From: Acidobacteriaceae bacterium
GTDB taxonomy: Bacteria > Acidobacteriota > Terriglobia > Terriglobales > Acidobacteriaceae
Length of the DNA: 34,445 nt
Assembly: GCA_003152195.1 (NCBI GenBank)
Contig: PLZN01000495.1
Span: 1-34,445 of the forward strand
Direction of reading: 5' to 3'
In this document: positions 1-27,307 of the stretch, one piece after another
Position numbering within the stretch: the stretch's first letter is position 1
How the letters are laid out: every line of letters starts with the position of its first letter
The notes under the pieces: model-generated
Databases searched by the model: none
Told to the model about the DNA's origin: nothing
What the model saw: only the letters and a program-made list of their open reading frames with translations
Translations under genes and position numbers: made by a program

Positions 1-134
1 CCAATCGAGTTGATCGCCTGGTGGGCCGTTCTGGGTTGATTGCCGGTTCGCGTCCTGGCCGGGCCTCACGCTGCAAACGAATTGCTCGTAATTCTCACAG
101 AAGGGTGCCGTCCTTTTCCGGGTACCGCCAGCGG

Positions 135-962
135 TCAATCTCCTAGTTCCGCGCGAGCTCTCAGCCGCCCGCCGTTGCGGTTACGCGGATAATCCAGCAT
201 CAGCAGGGCCAGAATGTACCAGGGTTCCAGGAGATAGCGAGTAAAGAGACGGCGGGGCTCATTTGCCAGCCGGAAGATCCATTCCATCCCCAGCTGGCCC
301 GACCAACGTGGCGGCGTCGGCATTGATCCGGCAACATACTCGAGGGCCGCTCCGATCGACGAAAGAATTACATGCGCCTCCAACCGCGCAAAATTTTCCT
401 GCGTCCAAAATTCCTGCCGCGGTACGCCCATCCCCACCATCAACAGGTCGGGCCTGTAGGCATTAATGCGCTCCAGCAAGGCTTCATTTTCCGCGCTGCC
501 ATGGCGCACGTCAAAATATCCATCACATACTTCTATCTGCAGGGCCGGGTAGAGTTTGCGCAACTGCGCCATCCCCTTTTCCGCGCAGGCCTTGGATGAC
601 CCAAGATAGAAGACACGCCAACCTCTGTTGGCAGCCAGCTCCATCAGCGGACAAAGCCAATCTGCCAATGTCACACGTTGCTTGCGCTCCAGGGGATAGC
701 CGTAAAGGCGTCCCAGAGCCACCAGCGGCATACCGTCGATATGAATCCAGTGCACGCATGAATAAAACTCACGCAGTCGGGCATGCCTATGAAAGAGGTA
801 CAGGGTATGCAGGTTATGGTTGCTGATAATCCACTTTCGGCGCTCGCGAATCCCCTGCTCCACCAGCGCGTTCAATTGCTGTAACGACTTCGGTTGCAAC
901 GTCACTCCCAGAAAAGAAATCGTATCGGTTTCTTTAGCGGAGGTCGGACTTAAGGCTATCAT
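135..962 (-). CDS. WecG/TagA/CpsF-family glycosyltransferase
   Basis: 275 aa; family-typical motifs 'ISNHNLHTLY', 'WIHIDGMPLVALGRLYG', 'RVFYLGSS', 'MVGMGVPRQEFW', 'SIGAALEYVAGSMPTPPRW..GMEWIFRLANEPRRLFTRYL'. Confidence 0.93.
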   Translation of the reverse strand: MIALSPTSAKETDTISFLGVTLQPKSLQQLNALVEQGIRERRKWIISNHNLHTLYLFHRHARLREFYSCVHWIHIDGMPLVALGRLYGYPLERKQRVTLADWLCPLMELAANRGWRVFYLGSSKACAEKGMAQLRKLYPALQIEVCDGYFDVRHGSAENEALLERINAYRPDLLMVGMGVPRQEFWTQENFARLEAHVILSSIGAALEYVAGSMPTPPRWSGQLGMEWIFRLANEPRRLFTRYLLEPWYILALLMLDYPRNRNGGRLRARAELGD

Positions 963-1086
963 TCAAGGGTTCTCCTCATCAGTTGGAGAGGGTTCTCCAG
1001 TTGCCACTTACATCAAGGATGATGGAAGCCAGAGCAGCAGGTGCTTCAGACACTGAGGGTACGAACATGCGGGTCATTGACTATTC

Positions 1087-1125
1087 AATCTAGGCAAACG
1101 GTGACAGAACGCCCGTTGGAAATCA
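1087..1125. promoter_or_regulatory. Conserved non-coding motif (copy P) upstream of wecG-like gene / GT gene
   Basis: AATCTAGGCAAACGGTGACAGAACGCCCGTTGGAAATCA matches 35/39 with 7211..7249, inside otherwise diverged duplicated intergenic DNA. Confidence 0.5.
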
Positions 1126-1177
1126 TCAAAAATCAACCACGGTTTCGAGGAAAGCAAGGTACTTACGATGCACCCTG

Positions 1178-1322
1178 TTCTAAGTTGGAACGCACGTCTC
1201 CTGTTTCGGGTCAAATCGATTATCACTGGCACGTTACCGAAGCTTAGAGTCGTCTTAGAAGACGCACTTATCCACCAGATCCTAACTTGGAACCGATGTG
1301 TCCTGTTTTGGATCAACCCGAT
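1178..1322. repeat. Two diverged direct repeats of about 43 bp (1178..1220 and 1280..1322)
   Basis: TTCTAAGTTGGAACGCACGTCTCCTGTTTCGGGTCAAATCGAT vs TCCTAACTTGGAACCGATGTGTCCTGTTTTGGATCAACCCGAT; a third degraded relative lies at about 7282..7327. Confidence 0.6.
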
Positions 1323-1493
1323 GACCGTCAGCGCATGAATTCAGTTGGGGCGGTATTTGTAAGCTTAAGATAGCTATCCATGCGCTGGCAGTTGCAGTGA
1401 TCCGCCCTGCTTCCTCTGCGGGCTTATCCACACTTCAAGAAAAGCCGCACCTGGCCGCAATTAGCAGGATGCAGCAATCGGAGAAATGGCCTC

Positions 1494-2621
1494 ATGCCTA
1501 ACACCACCTATCATCTTCTGACCGAAGCCGAACCCTTTTCTGAATTCTATGGAGGTGCGATCTCACGCTGGGCCGGCAATGTACTCCGCAACGCATCGAA
1601 CTCCGTGGTTGTCTGTCCCTCCGCGGATGACACCTGGAAATTTGCGGCGGAATCCATCACCCTGCTTGATGGCTTGAAACGTTACAGGCGCTTCCGGGGA
1701 TACCTTTCACGATTGCCGTGGTCTTTTCATCGCTTGGTCATACAACGTATCTTCCGCCCTCTCCTTGAGCGCGTGCGGCCCGGGGACATCGTCTGGATTC
1801 ACAATCGGCCAGAGTTCGCCATCGCTCTCACTTCGTGCGTTCATCGCGCGGGAGGGCGCATCATTCTCCATATGCACAATACGCACCTGGTCGAAGGGCG
1901 CGAAAAGCTGATGCGGCAGGTTCGAGTGGATAGATTGGTCTTTGTGAGTGAGTTTCTGCTGGAACAGGCACGGCGGAAGTTTCCCTCGCTCGGCCCATCG
2001 TCTGTAATCTATAACGGCGCTGATGAAACGATTTTCTATCCTGCGGCAGGCGGGCAAAAGAATTCGCAGACGCCCACAGTCCTCTTCGCGGGGCGGCTGG
2101 TTGAAGACAAGGGTGTTCACGTTTTGCTTGGCGCTATGAAGCTTCTCAATGAACAGGACGTGCGGCTCCAGGCACGAATCGTCGGCTCCTCTGGCTTCGG
2201 AGTTGGCGAAGAAACGGACTACATCAGGCGCCTCAAAGCGAACTCGCCCGAAACCGTTAGGTTTTTTCCCTATCGCAGCGGCGCCGCCCTGGGTGATCTC
2301 TTCCGAGAGGCAGACATCTTTTGCTCACCCTCTGTCTGCGAGGAGGGCTTCGGCCTGGTGAACGTCGAGGCGCTTGCCTCGGCTGTGCCGGTCGTCAGCA
2401 CGTACAGCGGTGGTGTCAGGGAGATATTTACCGCCGGTGGGGGGATCTTGGTGGAGCGCGGATCTGTCGTTCAGCTTGCCGGTGCACTCCGGCGGCTCGC
2501 GCAGGATCCGGAGCTCCGGACGTGTCTTGGCCAGCAAGGCTACGCTGTATTTCGTGAGCGTTTTACCTGGTCTCTCGCACGCACGCACGTTCAAGAGATC
2601 GAGAAAATGCTCTCCGCGTGA
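1494..2621 (+). CDS. Glycosyltransferase family 4-like
   Basis: 375 aa; 'VLFAGRLVEDKGVHVLLGAM' and 'EEGFGLVNVEALASAVPVVSTYSGGVREIF' donor-binding motifs. Confidence 0.92.
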   Translation: MPNTTYHLLTEAEPFSEFYGGAISRWAGNVLRNASNSVVVCPSADDTWKFAAESITLLDGLKRYRRFRGYLSRLPWSFHRLVIQRIFRPLLERVRPGDIVWIHNRPEFAIALTSCVHRAGGRIILHMHNTHLVEGREKLMRQVRVDRLVFVSEFLLEQARRKFPSLGPSSVIYNGADETIFYPAAGGQKNSQTPTVLFAGRLVEDKGVHVLLGAMKLLNEQDVRLQARIVGSSGFGVGEETDYIRRLKANSPETVRFFPYRSGAALGDLFREADIFCSPSVCEEGFGLVNVEALASAVPVVSTYSGGVREIFTAGGGILVERGSVVQLAGALRRLAQDPELRTCLGQQGYAVFRERFTWSLARTHVQEIEKMLSA

Positions 2622-2629
2622 CGCATGGG

Positions 2630-3739
2630 TTACGCCTGGCTGTATATGGCATCGAGTGCTCGTGCGAGCAGCACTCGATTGTGGCGCTGCTCGATGCCGG
2701 CGATGGCGGCTTGGCTGAGCTGTTCGAGCTCGCCGGGAGCTGCGGCGAGGGCGCGCAGATGGGCGAGCGCCTGGTCGGTCATCGATTCATATGCCTCGTC
2801 AAGCATGTCCCAGTAATCGGGAGAGCGCGGTTCTTCAACGTGGCTCCAGCAGCCGCGATGGTCTCTGGGCAGGTGGACAAGGAAGCCGTTGGCGTTCGCC
2901 GCGGGAGCGGGGAAGACGAATTCAGGCAGGGCACAGACGTCGGTCGTGATGGCGGGGAGTCCACTGGCGAAGCCTTCAAGAACAGAAAAGCCGTAAGTGT
3001 CATGCAGCGTGGCAAGAAAATTGAGGTGACATGTGCCCATCAGCTCGAGGACCTGTTGGTTGTTCATTGCGCCATGGAAGCTGACGTTCGGTAGATCCAT
3101 GCTCTTCAGATCCGTTTGATACCGCGTCGGGTCTGGGTGGTCGGTATGGGACCCGGAGCAGATCATCTTGGAGGAGACAATGTTGATCTGCAAACGAAGC
3201 CCTTCGGCCAAGGCTTTCCTCGCCAGCCGTAGGGCGACGATTCCGCCTTTCCGGGAAAAGTTGTTGCCTACGAAGATGAGCCGGATGGTTGCACCCTTTT
3301 TAAGCGTGCGCGGAGTTGAGGCGCGAAGAGGGATAGCCGGTTGCAGCACATAAGCTTTGGCGAGGACCTTGTCCAGGCCGTCCCACCCGGCATTGATGCG
3401 CGTGAAGCTGGCCAGGGCCCAGGCGGACATGGCGACGATCGCCAGACAAGCAGGCGAGCAGAGCTGGCGGCGCAAATGGTCCCTAAGCGACTCGCTGGGT
3501 GGAAACATGCGGGGCAGGGCGGACTCGAACGTGACCACCCAGGGCTTGCGCAGGGCAACCGGTATGTTGTTGATGAAATGAGCTAGATCAAAGGATCGCA
3601 TGGGGGGATAGGCAGCGATGGCTTCCGCCGGCCTCCACAAGCGGCCGAGGTTGACGAAACGGGCTCGCTCGATCGAGTGCTGTGCTTGGGGTGGAACAGT
3701 GAAGTGAGAGCAGTAATGATTGCTAGTCAGAATTTGCAT
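2630..3739 (-). CDS. Glycosyltransferase (GT4-like); start probably internal Met of the 3835 ORF
   Basis: ORF 2630..3835; 'IRLIFVGNNFSRKGGIVALRLA' and 'DTYGFSVLEGFASGLPAITTDVCALPEFV'. The preceding about 32 aa look non-homologous; MQILTSNHYC is the likely start. Confidence 0.85.
   Translation of the reverse strand: MQILTSNHYCSHFTVPPQAQHSIERARFVNLGRLWRPAEAIAAYPPMRSFDLAHFINNIPVALRKPWVVTFESALPRMFPPSESLRDHLRRQLCSPACLAIVAMSAWALASFTRINAGWDGLDKVLAKAYVLQPAIPLRASTPRTLKKGATIRLIFVGNNFSRKGGIVALRLARKALAEGLRLQINIVSSKMICSGSHTDHPDPTRYQTDLKSMDLPNVSFHGAMNNQQVLELMGTCHLNFLATLHDTYGFSVLEGFASGLPAITTDVCALPEFVFPAPAANANGFLVHLPRDHRGCWSHVEEPRSPDYWDMLDEAYESMTDQALAHLRALAAAPGELEQLSQAAIAGIEQRHNRVLLARALDAIYSQA
2651..2679. 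terminator. Perfect 10-bp inverted repeat between convergent GT genes (possible terminator, no U-tract)
   Basis: ATCGAGTGCT - 9 nt - AGCACTCGAT at the extreme 3' end of the minus-strand GT gene, 30 nt after the plus-strand GT stop. Confidence 0.3.
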
Positions 3740-3892
3740 GGTTCTCTCTTGTTTGCCGTTCATCCGACGATAGGTAATCGTAACGGTTCGTCGCGGTTCT
3801 CCGAATAAGGCGTCAGCCCGATCCAGTACCAGCACTAGGTTTCCGACTGAAAACTCCAGTAACTATGCGAACTCCTGCAGATAAGACATTTC

Positions 3893-5380
3893 ATGAACCA
3901 GAGGTGTCCCATGTGTAGCAACGTGCGCCCCGTACTAACTCGCCGCCGTCTCTTCCAGGGAGCAGCGTCTCTGGCTGCGTCCGGTGTACTCTCGGGTTGC
4001 GGCTACCACGCGAACTACACTCCGCCCTCCGGCCCTCCCCTTCCCACACCCTCTGGTCCGATCGTCGAAGGCTCCCTCACCGTGACGACGGCCTCCACCG
4101 GCAACATTCCGTCGCGCTTCATGGGTTTGAGCTACGAGAAGGAGACGATGAGCTATTCTTACTTCCACGCCTCCAACCACAATCTCATCGCACTCTTTCG
4201 GCGCCTCGGTAACGGTGTTTTGCGGATCGGCGGTGGCTCTGTCGATCAAGTTCTATGGACACCGAATGCCAACGGCACGCACTCGCAAGTCACGGCCTCT
4301 AACATCAGGGCTCTCGCTGGCTTCCTGCAATCGACCGGTTGGCCGTGCCTCTACGGTGTCAACCTCGCTACCTCCACTCCCGCTCTGGCAGCCGCCGAAG
4401 TGGCTTTCGCAGTCTCGGCTCTAGGCTCCAATCTTCTCGGTATCGAGATCGGCAACGAGTCCGACGAGTACGGCGTAGCGGGCGGCTTTTTCGCCGGGAA
4501 CTGGACTTTCCAGGACTTCCTCACCCGCTGGGATTCCTTTCGCTCGGCTATCATCGAGGTTGCGCCCAACGTTCCGATCACAGGTCCGGCCACCGCCGGT
4601 GGCAACCACATCTCCACCTGGACCTTGGCCTTTGGCCAGGCAGCCACACCGAGTGAGATCACTCTCCTGACCCAGCACTACTATCGCGCCAGCGGAGGAA
4701 TTCCCACCTCCACCGCCTCCTTCCTCATCAGCCCTGACACCCAACTTACCGGGGAGCTCACAACGCTGAACCTGGGAGCCCAGCAACTGGGCATTCCCTA
4801 CCGCATAGGCGAATGCAACTCCTTTTCCAACGGCGGGGCTGCCGGCGTGAGTAACAGCTACGCTTCCTCGCTATGGGTCATCGACTTTCTCTTTTCCGCA
4901 GCTCTCGGCGGCTCCACCGGTGTAAACATGCATGGCGGCGGTAACGGTCAAGGCTATACTCCGATCGCCGACGACTCAGGTGGCGTCATCGAAGCGCGCC
5001 CCGAGTACTACGGTCTGCTCCTCTTCACGCTGGCTGGTCCAGGCACCTTGCTCGAGACACAACTGTCGGCCGGAACCGTCGACGCCACGGCCTATGCCGT
5101 CAGGACCGCGAGCGCAGGCTTGAGCGTGATTCTCGTCAACAAAGACACGATCCAAAATCTAATCCTCACCATCCGGACGAACCAGATCATCCAGACAGCA
5201 ACCCTGATAACGATGACGGGACCGAGCCTGGCTGCCACCTCCGGAGTCACCATCCAGGGCGCCACCGTGGAAAAGGACGGCAGCTTTGCCCCGGCAAGCC
5301 CCGACACACTGACCCCTTCGGGAACGCAGGTGACTTGCTACATCCCGGCACTCAGCGCTGGACTTATCAGCATCACGTAA
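3893..5380 (+). CDS. GH79-like (beta-glucuronidase/heparanase-type) glycoside hydrolase, Tat-dependent lipoprotein
   Basis: N-term 'TRRRLFQGAASLAASGVLSGC' (twin-Arg plus lipobox-like Cys); 'RFMGLSYEKE', 'VLRIGGGS', 'LGIEIGNESDEYG' (acid/base region), 'YRIGECNSFSNGG' (nucleophile region), C-terminal beta-domain. Confidence 0.82.
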   Translation: MNQRCPMCSNVRPVLTRRRLFQGAASLAASGVLSGCGYHANYTPPSGPPLPTPSGPIVEGSLTVTTASTGNIPSRFMGLSYEKETMSYSYFHASNHNLIALFRRLGNGVLRIGGGSVDQVLWTPNANGTHSQVTASNIRALAGFLQSTGWPCLYGVNLATSTPALAAAEVAFAVSALGSNLLGIEIGNESDEYGVAGGFFAGNWTFQDFLTRWDSFRSAIIEVAPNVPITGPATAGGNHISTWTLAFGQAATPSEITLLTQHYYRASGGIPTSTASFLISPDTQLTGELTTLNLGAQQLGIPYRIGECNSFSNGGAAGVSNSYASSLWVIDFLFSAALGGSTGVNMHGGGNGQGYTPIADDSGGVIEARPEYYGLLLFTLAGPGTLLETQLSAGTVDATAYAVRTASAGLSVILVNKDTIQNLILTIRTNQIIQTATLITMTGPSLAATSGVTIQGATVEKDGSFAPASPDTLTPSGTQVTCYIPALSAGLISIT

Positions 5381-5389
5381 CCCATAGCG

Positions 5390-5421
5390 CCTGTTTTGCA
5401 AGGAATCAATAACTCAGGAGA
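5390..5421 (-). mobile_element. Solo terminal remnant of the MITE-like family (end abuts CTAG at 5422..5425)
   Basis: Reverse complement TCTCCTGAGTTATTGATTCCTTGCAAAACAGG matches the left end of the 27062 element TCTCCTGAGTCATTGATTTCTTGCAAGAAAG over about 30 nt. Confidence 0.65.
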
Positions 5422-6888
5422 CTAGATGCCCTTCATCGCGAAAAACAAAGTGTGAAGAAGAATCGCGAGATCGAGAAAGATCCCGCGATTCTCGACATAG
5501 TACAGGTCATACTCAATCGCGTCATTGATCCTGAACCTACGGTCGCCGCTGAGTTGCCAGAGGCCGGTCAGACCTTGCGGAACGGAGAGCCTGCGACGCT
5601 CCAGCGGGGTATAGGCTTCTGTTACATACGGCATCTCCGGACGAGGTCCGACCAGAGACATGTCTCCCGTGAGCACGTTCAGGAGCTGAGGAAGCTCATC
5701 CATACTCGTTTTTCTTAGAAATCTTCCCGCCGGTGTGACGCGATTGTCCCTGGAGCTTTCAGGAGACCGCCCATATTTTGGAGTGCCTGCATACATGCTC
5801 CGGAACTTGAACATGACGAATAGCTTCCCGGATTGTCCCGTCCGCTCCTGGCGAAAGAAAATTGGTCCCTCGGAAGTCGCTTTGACCATAACGGCGGCGA
5901 CCAGCCACATGGGTAGCGTTAGAAGAATGAGGAGACAAGACAACAGCAGGTCAGTGAGCCGCTTGAAGGCAATGTAAGCGAGCGGGTGCTCACCATCTGC
6001 ATCGAACGTGGTGACGATCAGACCATCAATCATTTGCACTGATGTGCAGCGCTCCGCAACATAGGGGTGTCCTGCGCCCAGCAGAGAAACGCTGACCCCG
6101 GCTTCTGCGGCTAAAGCCATAAGTTCATTCATGCGCGGCTGCGAGGCCGTAGGGGTGACGAAGATCTCCTGCACGTCGAGAGACCGCAGAAGAGATCGCG
6201 AAAGCGGTTCGGAAATAACCGGCGCGTGGTCTTTAAGGCTGTAATCATGGCTATAGATGACGCGGCGATTATCAAAGCCGCTTTCATCCAGAAATCCTAC
6301 CGGAATCCGGCCCAGGTCGGGGCAGTGCAGCAGGTAAGAAAAAAGACGCCGGGTCTCGCGATTTGTGCCGCAGATGAGCACCCTCCGCTTGTGAGCCGTA
6401 AGGGACCTCCAATGCCGGATGAGTTTGCTCGTCGTGTGCTTCTGAATGACCAGCAGGAGCGTTGCCAGGACCCAGAAATCCGCCAGCAGCAAGCGCGGCA
6501 TATCCGACTTGGTGAAGTAAGTGCCTACAGAGAGAAGAGTCAGGCTGTAAACAGAAACGCTTAGGATCTGTGCCGTGTCTGCGACCCGCAGCAGAGTGTC
6601 GCGTTGGGAGTAGAGGTGGTGCGCCCGCGCGAGAATAACAAAAGCCAGCCCATACTGGAGGAAAAGTTCTGCCCAAAGCAGCCAGGCACCGCGCCCGTCC
6701 AGCGGTCTATGCACCTCATAGAGCAGGATGCCGGCGACGCATGCGATGGCGATGCAACAGAAATCGAACACCACAGGAATCGCCACTCCCACGGCACACT
6801 GCAGGATCATGAAAGGTCGAGCCGGGGCTGAGGGAGAGTGGAACCCCCCAATCTGCTCCGGAGCCGGGAAAGGAAAGTCGGTCGCCAT
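5422..6888 (-). CDS. Undecaprenyl-phosphate sugar phosphotransferase (WcaJ/WbaP-type polyprenyl glycosylphosphotransferase)
   Basis: 488 aa; N-terminal TM segments, 'KRLTDLLLSCLLILLTLPMWLVAAVMVKATSEGPIFFRQERTGQSGKLFVMFKFRSM', 'RKTSMDELPQLLNVLTGDMSLVGPRPE'. Confidence 0.95.
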   Translation of the reverse strand: MATDFPFPAPEQIGGFHSPSAPARPFMILQCAVGVAIPVVFDFCCIAIACVAGILLYEVHRPLDGRGAWLLWAELFLQYGLAFVILARAHHLYSQRDTLLRVADTAQILSVSVYSLTLLSVGTYFTKSDMPRLLLADFWVLATLLLVIQKHTTSKLIRHWRSLTAHKRRVLICGTNRETRRLFSYLLHCPDLGRIPVGFLDESGFDNRRVIYSHDYSLKDHAPVISEPLSRSLLRSLDVQEIFVTPTASQPRMNELMALAAEAGVSVSLLGAGHPYVAERCTSVQMIDGLIVTTFDADGEHPLAYIAFKRLTDLLLSCLLILLTLPMWLVAAVMVKATSEGPIFFRQERTGQSGKLFVMFKFRSMYAGTPKYGRSPESSRDNRVTPAGRFLRKTSMDELPQLLNVLTGDMSLVGPRPEMPYVTEAYTPLERRRLSVPQGLTGLWQLSGDRRFRINDAIEYDLYYVENRGIFLDLAILLHTLFFAMKGI

Positions 6889-6906
6889 GAACTGCCACCT
6901 GTGCTT

Positions 6907-7036
6907 TTAATAGATTTCGAGCAACTTCCCGCTTGCGCGTGGGGCTCTGAGCTTCCCGCCGTTGCGGTTGCGCGGATAATTCAGCGTGAGCAGGACCAGA
7001 ATGTGCCAAGACTCAACGAGATACTGACTCGGGCAT
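6907..7036 (-). pseudogene. Internally deleted relic of a second wecG-like gene
   Basis: Reverse strand encodes QYLVESWHILVLLTLNYPRNRNGGKLRAPRASGKLLEIY*, matching RYLLEPWYILALLMLDYPRNRNGGRLRARAELGD* of the intact gene. A CAT at 7034..7036 aligns with the intact start region, and most of the gene is missing out of frame. Confidence 0.85.
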
Positions 7037-7335
7037 GATCAGGGTTGATGTAACTTAAAATGTCGCACTCAGCGTGGCCGTGTGAGCATGAGATCATCCC
7101 TATAAGTTGGAGGGATTAATTTATTGTCTCTTGCATCCAGACCAATCGAAGCCAAAGCAGTAGGTGCTTCAAAAAGTGTCTATGCGAGCACATTATTTGC
7201 TTTGTTACTAAATCTAGGCAAACGTTGACAGAATGCCCGACGGAAATCAACCTCAGTTTTAGGGAAATAATGGACTAATAATGAGTAGTGTTCCAATTTA
7301 GGGCGGCAGGCGTCCGGTTTTAAGTCACCTTGATT
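7037..7335. repeat. Diverged duplicate of the 963..1250 intergenic/promoter region
   Basis: Shared blocks: GAAGCCA[GA]AGCAG[CT]AGGTGCTTCA and AATCTAGGCAAACG[GT]TGACAGAA[CT]GCCCG[..]GGAAATCA, in the same order and orientation. Confidence 0.8.
7211..7249. promoter_or_regulatory. Conserved non-coding motif (copy Q) between sugar transferase and flippase genes
   Basis: AATCTAGGCAAACGTTGACAGAATGCCCGACGGAAATCA; 35/39 with 1087..1125. Confidence 0.5.
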
Positions 7336-7406
7336 ACCATGGACTAAGTTGCGAACAATTCGGGTCGTGCCCGAACGACATACTTATCAATCAAGATCTA
7401 GTAACG

Positions 7407-8888
7407 ATGTCGGGTATCGCCGGGTCGGTAATCACCAAGGAACCGCGAGCGGAGAATGAACCAAGGGATGCGCGAGGCATTCCAGCCGAAAGAGGTGTGC
7501 CGCTGAAACTGAAACAGGGCTTGATGCGCAATCCGCTAAGGCGGTTTCACAATTACCGTGTCCCTAGACAGATCGCTAGGTGTGGTTTTCCTTGGGACAG
7601 GGTCTACACCTATTGTGAAACCGCTTTAAGCGGCCAACTCGCTAAGAACGCCAGCTGGATGTTCCTCGGCCAAGGCGTCAGCTTCGCTGTCCAGGCATGT
7701 TACTTCGTCCTGCTCGCACGCTTGCTGGGCGCCGACCAGTATGGAATTTTCGTTGGTGCCGCTGCCGCCGTCTCGCTGCTGAGCCAGTACAGCACGCTCG
7801 GCTCAGGCATGGTCCTGCTCCGCCAGGTGAGCCGCCACAACGGCGAATTCCCGCAGTACTGGGGCAACGTGCTCCTCACCACGCTCAGCGTCGGGCTCCT
7901 TGTCATCGTGAGCCTCGCCATGTTTGGTAAGTGGATGGTTGGCCCAGCCAGCGCCTCTGTCATCGTTCTCGTTGCCGTGGGCGAATGCACCTGCGCGCGC
8001 CTCGCCGAGGGCGGCGGGCAAGCCTTCCAGGCCTTTGAACAACTCAAGCTCACCGCCGCTCTCACCTCCCTCACAAATATCGCGCGCCTCGTCACCGCTG
8101 CAGGCATGGTGCTTGTTCTCCACCGCGCTACCGTGCGTCAGTGGGTCATTGCTTCGCTCGCGGTTTCCTGCCTCTCCGCCGCTATGGCCCTCATCCTGGT
8201 GACCACTCGTCTCGGCTTGCCTAAGTTCGACTTTCACTTGCTTCGTAAGCGGGCCCTTGAAGGCATCGGCTTCTCCATTGCCGCCAGCACCACGTCCATC
8301 TACAACGACATCGATAAGGCCATGCTCAGCCGCTACGGCATGCTCGCCGCCAACGGAATTTACAGCATGGCGTATCGCGTCGTCGACATGAGCTGCACTC
8401 CTATCCGCTCGCTCCAGTCAGCCGCCTTTCCGCGCTTTTGCCAGATGGGGAGGAACGGGGCGCGCGGCTCGATCGGTCTCACGCGGAGACTGCTCGGCAA
8501 GACATTGCCCTTCGGCCTGCTGGCAGCCGTTGTCATGTTTCTGGCTGCGCCCATTATTCCTTACGTAGTAGGCCGGAGCTTCGCCAACAGCGTCTCCGCA
8601 CTGCAATGGTTGTGTCTGCTGCCGGTCTTCCGCAGCCTTCACCTCAGTGCTGGGGACACGCTTACCGGCGCCGGCTACCAGCGCTACCGCACCGCCGCGC
8701 AGCTCATCGCCGCAGCGTTGAACTTCGGCCTCAACCTCTGGCTTATCCCCGCCTACTCATGGCATGGAGCAGCCTGGTCGAGCCTGGTGACCGATGGAGC
8801 CCTTGCCGCCGGCAACTGGATCGTGCTCAGCCTGTTGATTCGCAGGGAGAACCACACCGTCCTCGAAAGTCAAGTCGCCGCCATATAG
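7407..8888 (+). CDS. Oligosaccharide flippase (Wzx/MATE-like); N-terminal about 75-90 aa uncertain
   Basis: Multi-TM protein; family-like start 'LAKNASWMFLGQGVSFAVQACYFVLLARLLGADQYGIFVG'. True start may be downstream of 7407. Confidence 0.88.
   Translation: MSGIAGSVITKEPRAENEPRDARGIPAERGVPLKLKQGLMRNPLRRFHNYRVPRQIARCGFPWDRVYTYCETALSGQLAKNASWMFLGQGVSFAVQACYFVLLARLLGADQYGIFVGAAAAVSLLSQYSTLGSGMVLLRQVSRHNGEFPQYWGNVLLTTLSVGLLVIVSLAMFGKWMVGPASASVIVLVAVGECTCARLAEGGGQAFQAFEQLKLTAALTSLTNIARLVTAAGMVLVLHRATVRQWVIASLAVSCLSAAMALILVTTRLGLPKFDFHLLRKRALEGIGFSIAASTTSIYNDIDKAMLSRYGMLAANGIYSMAYRVVDMSCTPIRSLQSAAFPRFCQMGRNGARGSIGLTRRLLGKTLPFGLLAAVVMFLAAPIIPYVVGRSFANSVSALQWLCLLPVFRSLHLSAGDTLTGAGYQRYRTAAQLIAAALNFGLNLWLIPAYSWHGAAWSSLVTDGALAAGNWIVLSLLIRRENHTVLESQVAAI
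7533..7633. repeat. Large inverted repeat in the 5' part of the flippase ORF
   Basis: GCGGTTTCACAAT (7541..7553) / ATTGTGAAACCGC (7612..7624), perfect 13 bp; nested TGTCCC/GGGACA and CCTAG/CTAGG pairs; extended ends CCGCTAAGGCGG / CCGCTTTAAGCGG. Confidence 0.8.
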
Positions 8889-21626: not shown

Positions 21627-21789
21627 GGGTGCCCCACGTTCGCCCCAGCGTACGTGGGACGAAAGAGAGGGCGAAGCCCCACCATTGTTTTTTGCCCTAG
21701 CGGAATTAAGCGCGGTTGCGCCCTTCTGGGAGAGCAATGGAAACTAATCATCATTGTCCCAGGTACGCTGGGGCGAACTTGGGGCACCC
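21627..21789. repeat. Long-armed palindromic repeat (34-bp arms, 32/34 complementary)
   Basis: GGGTGCCCCACGTTCGCCCCAGCGTACGTGGGAC (21627..21660) vs GTCCCAGGTACGCTGGGGCGAACTTGGGGCACCC (21756..21789); each arm also folds on itself. Confidence 0.9.
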
Positions 21790-21957: not shown

Positions 21958-23460
21958 ATGGAACTATTTAAAAACCCCGCTGCGGCGCCGGATGTAGGAT
22001 CGCCGGGCACGACGCGTCCGCTGTGCTGGATGCTCGTCTTTCTATCTTTGGTGCCGACCGCGATCGTGCTCCCGATGGCTCCTACGAAGATTGGCATCGC
22101 CATCCTTGCGGGATGGATCGTGCTGATCTGGATTGCAATCACCTTTGCGCGCGGTCAGTTCCATTACGTCGTTCCCATGTGGGTGGCCGTATACCCATAC
22201 TGCTACTATTTCTTCACCTTCCCGAGGGAGCGGTCCATCTTCACCGTTGACCGCGCATTTATCGTACTGCTGGTCATTGAGATGCTTGTTATCTCGCGAA
22301 AGGCCTTCGCCGCGCCGCTCACGCGCGACGTGCGTATCAGCGCGTATTTTTGGGGTCTCTATCTACTGGTCTGCATTTTCTCTCTTGCGGGTCACGCCCC
22401 CTCTGAAGCATTGCCCTTCTACCGTTTGTTAGTAGAGGGCATGCTGATGCCTGCCCTGCTTGGTTTGTATGCGATGCGTTACTTCCCGCTGCTTAAGGAT
22501 CTTCAGAAGCTCCATTTAGGTGCCTGCCTCCTGGGTCTTGGCCTATGCATCACCGGGCTCATTGAATTGACGACGGAGATAGATCTATTTCCCTGGAACG
22601 AATCAGAACCGATGTTTACCGACACCCACCTCCGGCGAGCCGATGGGCCTTTCGAGCAGCAGGTTGTCTTATCCATGGTGGCTATACTCGCCTTCTTCTT
22701 CATCATCTATTTGCGGCGCCTTATGCCGCATCGAATCTCCCTTCGGCAAACGCTGCTCCATAAGACAGGCGCTGTGGCTGCGTTCACGGCAGCGCTGATT
22801 CCGTTAAATCGCGGTCTGGTATTTGCGTTGGTCCCGATTGCCGTCGTCGACTCCTGTTCGAGGCACCGTTTGATTTCGCGGCGAACGTGGGCCACACTTT
22901 TCGGGATGATCCTGCTCGCAGCTGTTGCGGCAAAGCTGCTCGATCCCCGCCTTTATGATGATCGTGTTTCCAGCCCAGACAACGTTTATCAACGGGTTGC
23001 ACAGCATATGGAAACGCTGCGAGTGGTTCATGAGTATCCGTTCTTCGGGGTGGGATTCGGTTTATACCACGATGTTGCTTCCCGGAATCCACGATACATG
23101 GCGAAATGGAAGGGCATCGAGTCGATGAACTATCCGCACAATGCGCTGATGACAGTTCTTTCGGAAGAGGGCATCGTCGGCTTGCTGTTCTATGTTGTGG
23201 CCCAGGTTTTTCTGGTACGAGCGATGTGGAGGATCCGCAAAGCCTATCCACCGGGTTGGCTGGCGTTTCTTTACTGTTTTCTTGTTTACGTGCTGATCGG
23301 CCTGGACTACGGCACCGTTTACTTTTCTGACATCAATCTGTTTTATCTTTTTATCCTTGGCGTGCTCTACCAGCTGCAGATAAGAATGGCGCACGAACAA
23401 GAGTTCGCTGTCCTGAACTCGCCTAATCAAAGTTCGTCTTTGCAAGTCGTGGAATGCTAG
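21958..23460 (+). CDS. O-antigen ligase/polymerase (Wzy/WaaL-like) membrane protein
   Basis: About 12 hydrophobic segments; 'RVVHEYPFFGVGFGLYHDVASRNPRYMAKWKGIESMNYPHNALMTVLSEEGIVGLLFYV' matches the Wzy_C-type H-N signature. Confidence 0.87.
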   Translation: MELFKNPAAAPDVGSPGTTRPLCWMLVFLSLVPTAIVLPMAPTKIGIAILAGWIVLIWIAITFARGQFHYVVPMWVAVYPYCYYFFTFPRERSIFTVDRAFIVLLVIEMLVISRKAFAAPLTRDVRISAYFWGLYLLVCIFSLAGHAPSEALPFYRLLVEGMLMPALLGLYAMRYFPLLKDLQKLHLGACLLGLGLCITGLIELTTEIDLFPWNESEPMFTDTHLRRADGPFEQQVVLSMVAILAFFFIIYLRRLMPHRISLRQTLLHKTGAVAAFTAALIPLNRGLVFALVPIAVVDSCSRHRLISRRTWATLFGMILLAAVAAKLLDPRLYDDRVSSPDNVYQRVAQHMETLRVVHEYPFFGVGFGLYHDVASRNPRYMAKWKGIESMNYPHNALMTVLSEEGIVGLLFYVVAQVFLVRAMWRIRKAYPPGWLAFLYCFLVYVLIGLDYGTVYFSDINLFYLFILGVLYQLQIRMAHEQEFAVLNSPNQSSSLQVVEC

Positions 23461-23707
23461 TGTGGTGAGTTGTTAATTCGCATAACAATTTTGTCATCTC
23501 GACCGGAGCGCACCCTGGATTTCCTACTGCGCGGCACTAACAATGGCCACGTGTGCGGCTTTCTTTCAGGAAAGCCGCATGAAGTTCGCTGATCCCACCA
23601 AGCCCGACAGGAAATCCGGGGGTAGCGGAGTGGAGAGACCTGCGGTTTCTACGATCTACGCCGCGTCTCCGCTCTTTGATGATGTGACGAACTAATGACT
23701 CACCACA
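23461..23707. mobile_element. MITE-like element 1 (247 bp), TSD CTAG (23457..23460 / 23708..23711)
   Basis: TIR TGTGGTGAGTTGTTAATTCG / revcomp of right end TGTGGTGAGTCATTAGTTCG; body homologous to element 2; internal hairpin TGCGGCTTTC-N6-GAAAGCCGCA (23554..23579). Confidence 0.88.
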
Positions 23708-27061: not shown

Positions 27062-27307
27062 TCTCCTGAGTCATTGATTTCTTGCAAGAAAGTTGTCATC
27101 CTGACCGGAGAGAACCCGGATTTCCTACTGCGCAGCGCCAGCCAGCGCCGCGTGTGCGGCTTTCCGTAAAGAAAGCCGCATGAAGTTCCCCTGCGCCACC
27201 AACCTCAACAGGAAATCCGGGGGAGCGAAGTGGAGGGACCTGCGGTTCAACCCTTTCGCTCTCCCAGATTTGTTCGCGTTTCTACGTGGAACTTTAGACT
27301 CAGGAGA
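27062..27307. mobile_element. MITE-like element 2 (246 bp), TSD TTAG (27058..27061 / 27308..27311)
   Basis: TIR TCTCCTGAGTC at both ends; body homologous to element 1; CCCGGATTTCCT/AGGAAATCCGGG and TGCGGCTTTC-N6-GAAAGCCGCA nested stems. Confidence 0.9.

Follow-up and report, generated by a model that had tools for sequence, protein, structure and literature searches.

Bacterial polysaccharide clusters carry pseudogene remnants that were left by duplication and internal deletion. The locus described here is like these in that a redundant glycosyltransferase copy is cut to one end beside a functional gene, but unlike them in that the lost gene has left behind a leader that is still recognizable, at ~68% identity. 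Promoter capture by rearrangement has a putative example in Pseudomonas protegens, in the region upstream of aws (PMC8370652), and the Lenski experiment has provided local capture linked to deletion (PMC12803068); the hand-over of a promoter is thus a kind of event already known from experimental evolution. In these cases, as in ours if our reading is true, a rearrangement puts a new gene under a promoter that already exists. Unlike them, the event considered here is old and is deduced from sequence only. Genes for WecG/TagA/CpsF proteins and for polyisoprenyl-phosphate sugar transferases are also neighbours at six loci of relatives (L230, L009, L091, L214, L215 and L222). Those loci differ from ours: their wecG is intact and, wherever its clade was checked, proved to be of a different one (25-29% identity); several of them have it on the downstream side of the transferase gene.

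The polysaccharide cluster

The window spans an entire contig (G000:C425; 34,445 nucleotides) of the 6.8-Mb genome, 77% complete, of an uncultured Acidobacteriaceae bacterium. It carries a polysaccharide cluster with wecG, several GT4 glycosyltransferase genes, a sugar transferase gene, a flippase gene, Wza- and Wzc-like genes and two Wzy-like genes; our literature search on the sugar-polymer cluster of this contig found no paper. The intact wecG gene (135-962, minus strand) encodes a protein of 275 aa with a Glyco_tran_WecG domain (PF03808), and its leader occupies 963-1282 on the same strand. The polyisoprenyl-phosphate sugar transferase gene (5422-6888, minus strand), whose product has Bac_transf (PF02397) and CoA_binding_3 domains, heads its minus-strand unit. 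The gene at 3893-5380 encodes a 495-aa product without a Pfam match and is an unnamed companion of the wecG type found in the window. A scan of positions 1-8000 for RNA families gave nothing above noise.

The contig also contains several repeats. Two copies of a dispersed repeat of ~160-180 nt with a central hairpin lie at 23480-23660 and 27093-27247; this repeat has ~40 strong copies in the genome and short flanking inverted repeats such as CTAGTGTGGTGAGT, and its appearance is that of a MITE-type element. A 34-nt inverted repeat (21627-21660 and 21756-21789; 94% identity) precedes the Wzy-like gene at 21958. On the upstream side of the intact wecG leader, the stretch GGTGCGGCTTTTCTTGA at 1435-1460 is part of a further hairpin repeat that occurs genome-wide; full copies elsewhere in the genome pair GGTGCGGCTTTTCTTGA with GGAAAAGCCGC, whereas 1435-1460 is only a fragment. 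The intact wecG leader has a 53-nt direct repeat (1168-1220 and 1270-1322; 74% identity, 102 nt apart) that is possibly a paired binding site. Its counterpart in the second leader described below is weak, the first copy scoring just above all 500 shuffles and the second being borderline (P 0.016), and we make no claim of an operator.

A decayed wecG copy upstream of the sugar transferase gene

Directly upstream of the sugar transferase gene we found a decayed copy of wecG and its leader, homologous to the intact locus and in the same order; among the genomes searched, this duplication is specific to the present lineage. The coding part of the copy is a 3' remnant (6907-7026, minus strand) that keeps the last ~39 codons in one frame, translated as QYLVESWHILVLLTLNYPRNRNGGKLRAPRASGKLLEIY*, with the stop codon TAA at 6909-6907. 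In a self-search of the whole window, it shares 82.5% identity with the intact gene over 80 nt (6944-7023 versus 157-236; E ~2e-16), and its local alignment score is 109, whereas none of 300 dinucleotide-preserving shuffles scored above 44. A protein search of the organism's own genome also recovered the remnant (6937-7050, E 2e-8, with one TGA). The first-pass annotation had placed the tail of a WecG paralog at 6907..7036 with about 35 codons; the homology holds, and we have corrected its extent. Thus, 6907-7026 has above-chance homology to a wecG gene and is a PF03808 remnant. It is not a functional PF03808 gene, as it retains residues from ~242 onward only, has an in-frame TGA just upstream and lies in a frame without a usable start. 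Past the wecG stop, on the downstream side, no homology is found. The remnant stop and the transferase start codon (ATG at 6888) are 18 nt apart, as originally annotated, with AGGTGG just before the ATG.

The second block (~7086-7400, minus strand) is a diverged copy of the intact wecG leader, with 67-68% identity to 963-1282 in a gapped alignment and a local score of 167 versus a shuffle maximum of 60.5. The similarity of the wecG locus to the remnant region therefore exceeds chance outside the coding tail too. A copy of the upstream DNA had been noted previously, as 7037..7335 matching 963..1250; our alignment supports the homology and moves its edges. The comparison of the window with itself returned 7124-7249 versus 1001-1125 at 72% identity. 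The best-kept block of the leader copy (~7210-7259; core 7211-7233 versus 1087-1109) reaches 84-88% identity, which is suggestive, but the identities do not cluster significantly (P 0.10-0.29), and we could not demonstrate that selection has preserved the leader. No wecG-locus homology extends beyond 7400. Both blocks lie on the same strand and are collinear with the intact locus, so that the minus strand reads leader copy, gutted wecG and transferase, in agreement with the order first proposed.

Between the two blocks, a joint or filler of 59 nt (7027-7085, minus strand) stands in place of ~720 nt of missing wecG coding sequence. The first-pass annotation had aligned a CAT in this region with the start region of the paralog, and this did not hold up: 7027-7087 scores 12 against the wecG start region (shuffle mean 12.7, P 0.74) and 18 against any part of wecG (shuffle mean 19.4, P 0.74). 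These 59 nt show no similarity to wecG anywhere along its length, which prevents an exact placement of the deletion joint.

The differences between the two copies have the character of ordinary duplicate decay, and 6907-7400 is a real, well-marked gene remnant. In 27 codons of the tail there are 16 nucleotide differences from the intact gene, with eight codon changes being replacements and four silent. Their distribution over the three codon positions (5, 4 and 7) is indistinguishable, with only 16 differences, from an even one or from the spread among orthologs, and does not separate drift from earlier constraint. The leader copy has drifted toward AT (52 GC-to-AT versus 29 AT-to-GC differences), and its GC content is 42% versus 49% in the intact leader. 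The leaders differ by 32% and the tails by ~18%, as expected for weakly constrained leaders and for constraint on just one of the two tails. Compared with orthologs, the relic scored lower than the intact gene in four of four comparisons, indicating that the relic evolved faster.

Origin of the duplicate

The nearest intact wecG orthologs (L171-L174) show 65-73% identity. PRNRNGG is common to the tails of the intact gene and the relic, at a place where the orthologs have YLRTGG or FVRKGG, and no ortholog is as close to the relic as the intact wecG of the window. The leader was found at no other place in the organism's own genome or in 60 relatives at E 1e-3, and 399 genomes of the class gave just four matches of 20-35 nt (E 0.003-0.008), which we take as chance. 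The duplication therefore looks lineage-specific among the genomes searched; it would have taken place either in this lineage or in a donor lineage outside the sample. Two of the orthologs, L171 and L172, have wecG in divergent orientation to a homolog (45-46% identity) of the 3893-5380 gene. The window preserves this relative orientation of its intact wecG and the 3893-5380 gene, with two GT4 genes lying in between. We therefore regard 135-962 as the probable original site and the relic as a derived copy, on the moderate evidence of two orthologs with that neighbour.

We also surveyed the neighbourhoods of the best transferase relatives (37-49% identity) in 398 sampled genomes of the family. 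A wecG gene lies directly upstream of the transferase gene in only one of them, G545 (L230), directly downstream in L214, L215 and L222, and ~1 kb downstream in L008/L179 and L216, while most relatives have none nearby. Genes of these two kinds thus often adjoin, but not in the arrangement first proposed for this locus. An undeleted intermediate or pre-deletion arrangement occurs in none of these best relatives, although the nearest sisters may be unsampled. Searching the genome contigs with the transferase turned up nothing closely related to it, the best full-length match having 40% identity; its nearest named relative, L091, comes from an Acidobacteriaceae genome.

These results bear on how the remnant came to lie before the transferase gene. 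It had been suggested that an ancestral operon of promoter, wecG and transferase lost wecG by internal deletion, in which case 5422-7400 would be the old locus and 135-962 a secondary copy. The operon-like spacing of 18 nt agrees with this, and so do G545, where wecG precedes a transferase of 48% identity, and G017 (L009), where wecG abuts a short transferase. However, the G545 gene is of a different clade (27% identical to the wecG of the window), an intact wecG of the window's own clade was looked for and adjoins this transferase, upstream or otherwise, in no relative examined, and the intact copy remains divergent to the 3893-5380 gene. An ancestral operon is thus unsupported, and we consider it unlikely. 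A shared regulatory element set independently before two polysaccharide genes, with no duplication of wecG, would account for the best-kept leader block being the most alike part of the two loci. This explanation is highly improbable, given that the leader copy and a same-strand wecG tail are collinear and that the leader occurs at two sites of the genome only, with no convincing match in the relatives or the class.

On the best reading, the transferase gene was once immediately preceded by a leader-wecG copy, which then lost its coding body; this part of the original proposal we retain. We infer the following order of events, direction of copying and promoter use. A segment of ~1.15 kb, comprising the wecG leader and coding region, would have been duplicated in this lineage and placed directly upstream of the transferase gene, with 18 nt from the wecG stop to the transferase start. 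The redundant copy would then have lost ~720 nt of its coding body and drifted, while the stop-proximal tail and the leader stayed. The transferase gene is probably transcribed through the remnant, most likely from a promoter in the leader copy. Taken as a whole, from lineage duplication through decay to transcription from the copied leader, this account has about an even chance of being right.

The promoter of the sugar transferase gene

The transferase gene is the first of its minus-strand unit and its upstream neighbour is the divergent flippase gene on the plus strand, the conserved part of which begins at ~7638; its promoter must therefore lie between 6907 and ~7640. About two thirds of this interval is the wecG-derived block (6907-7400). 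The DNA before the flippase gene that does not derive from wecG is only ~240 nt, about half of it a dispersed hairpin repeat (7523-7634; ~110 nt, ~40 copies in the genome) situated between the leader copy and the flippase gene. The flippase open reading frame from ATG 7407 reads through this repeat at its 5' end, so that a start at 7407 is doubtful; the conserved part begins only after the repeat.

By elimination, with little other DNA available, no other single site is as likely to hold the transferase promoter as the leader copy, and the chance that the promoter lies in this copy is a little better than even. The DNA that was upstream of wecG (7086-7400) is now upstream of the transferase start on the same strand, as in a promoter capture, and a hand-over of the wecG promoter to the transferase gene is a plausible and reasonable reading of this arrangement. 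A scan of the leader copy for promoters, covering the sigma-70 consensus only, found nothing above chance; the one consensus promoter, TTGCCT-18-AATAAT (7221-7192), is no more frequent than chance predicts and has no counterpart in the intact leader. The terminator scan was likewise at chance level. It is accordingly quite conceivable, at somewhat below an even chance, that the remnant is inert and that the transferase promoter lies in 7401-7522, in the hairpin repeat, or newly formed in the relic tail or filler. The promoter scan fits such an inert remnant, and the divergence and AT drift of the leader copy are compatible with the absence of constraint; against it stands the shortness of the non-wecG DNA before the flippase gene, about half of which is repeat. 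A stronger version of the hand-over, in which the duplicated leader has been kept as a working transferase promoter so that wecG and the transferase gene, with starts ~6 kb apart, stay co-controlled, seems doubtful to us.

If the leader copy drives the transferase gene, this locus would be a natural case of a promoter outliving its gene, and it would match the control of two steps of a polysaccharide pathway. Otherwise, it would be an ordinary decaying duplicate, useful mainly for ordering the rearrangements in this cluster.
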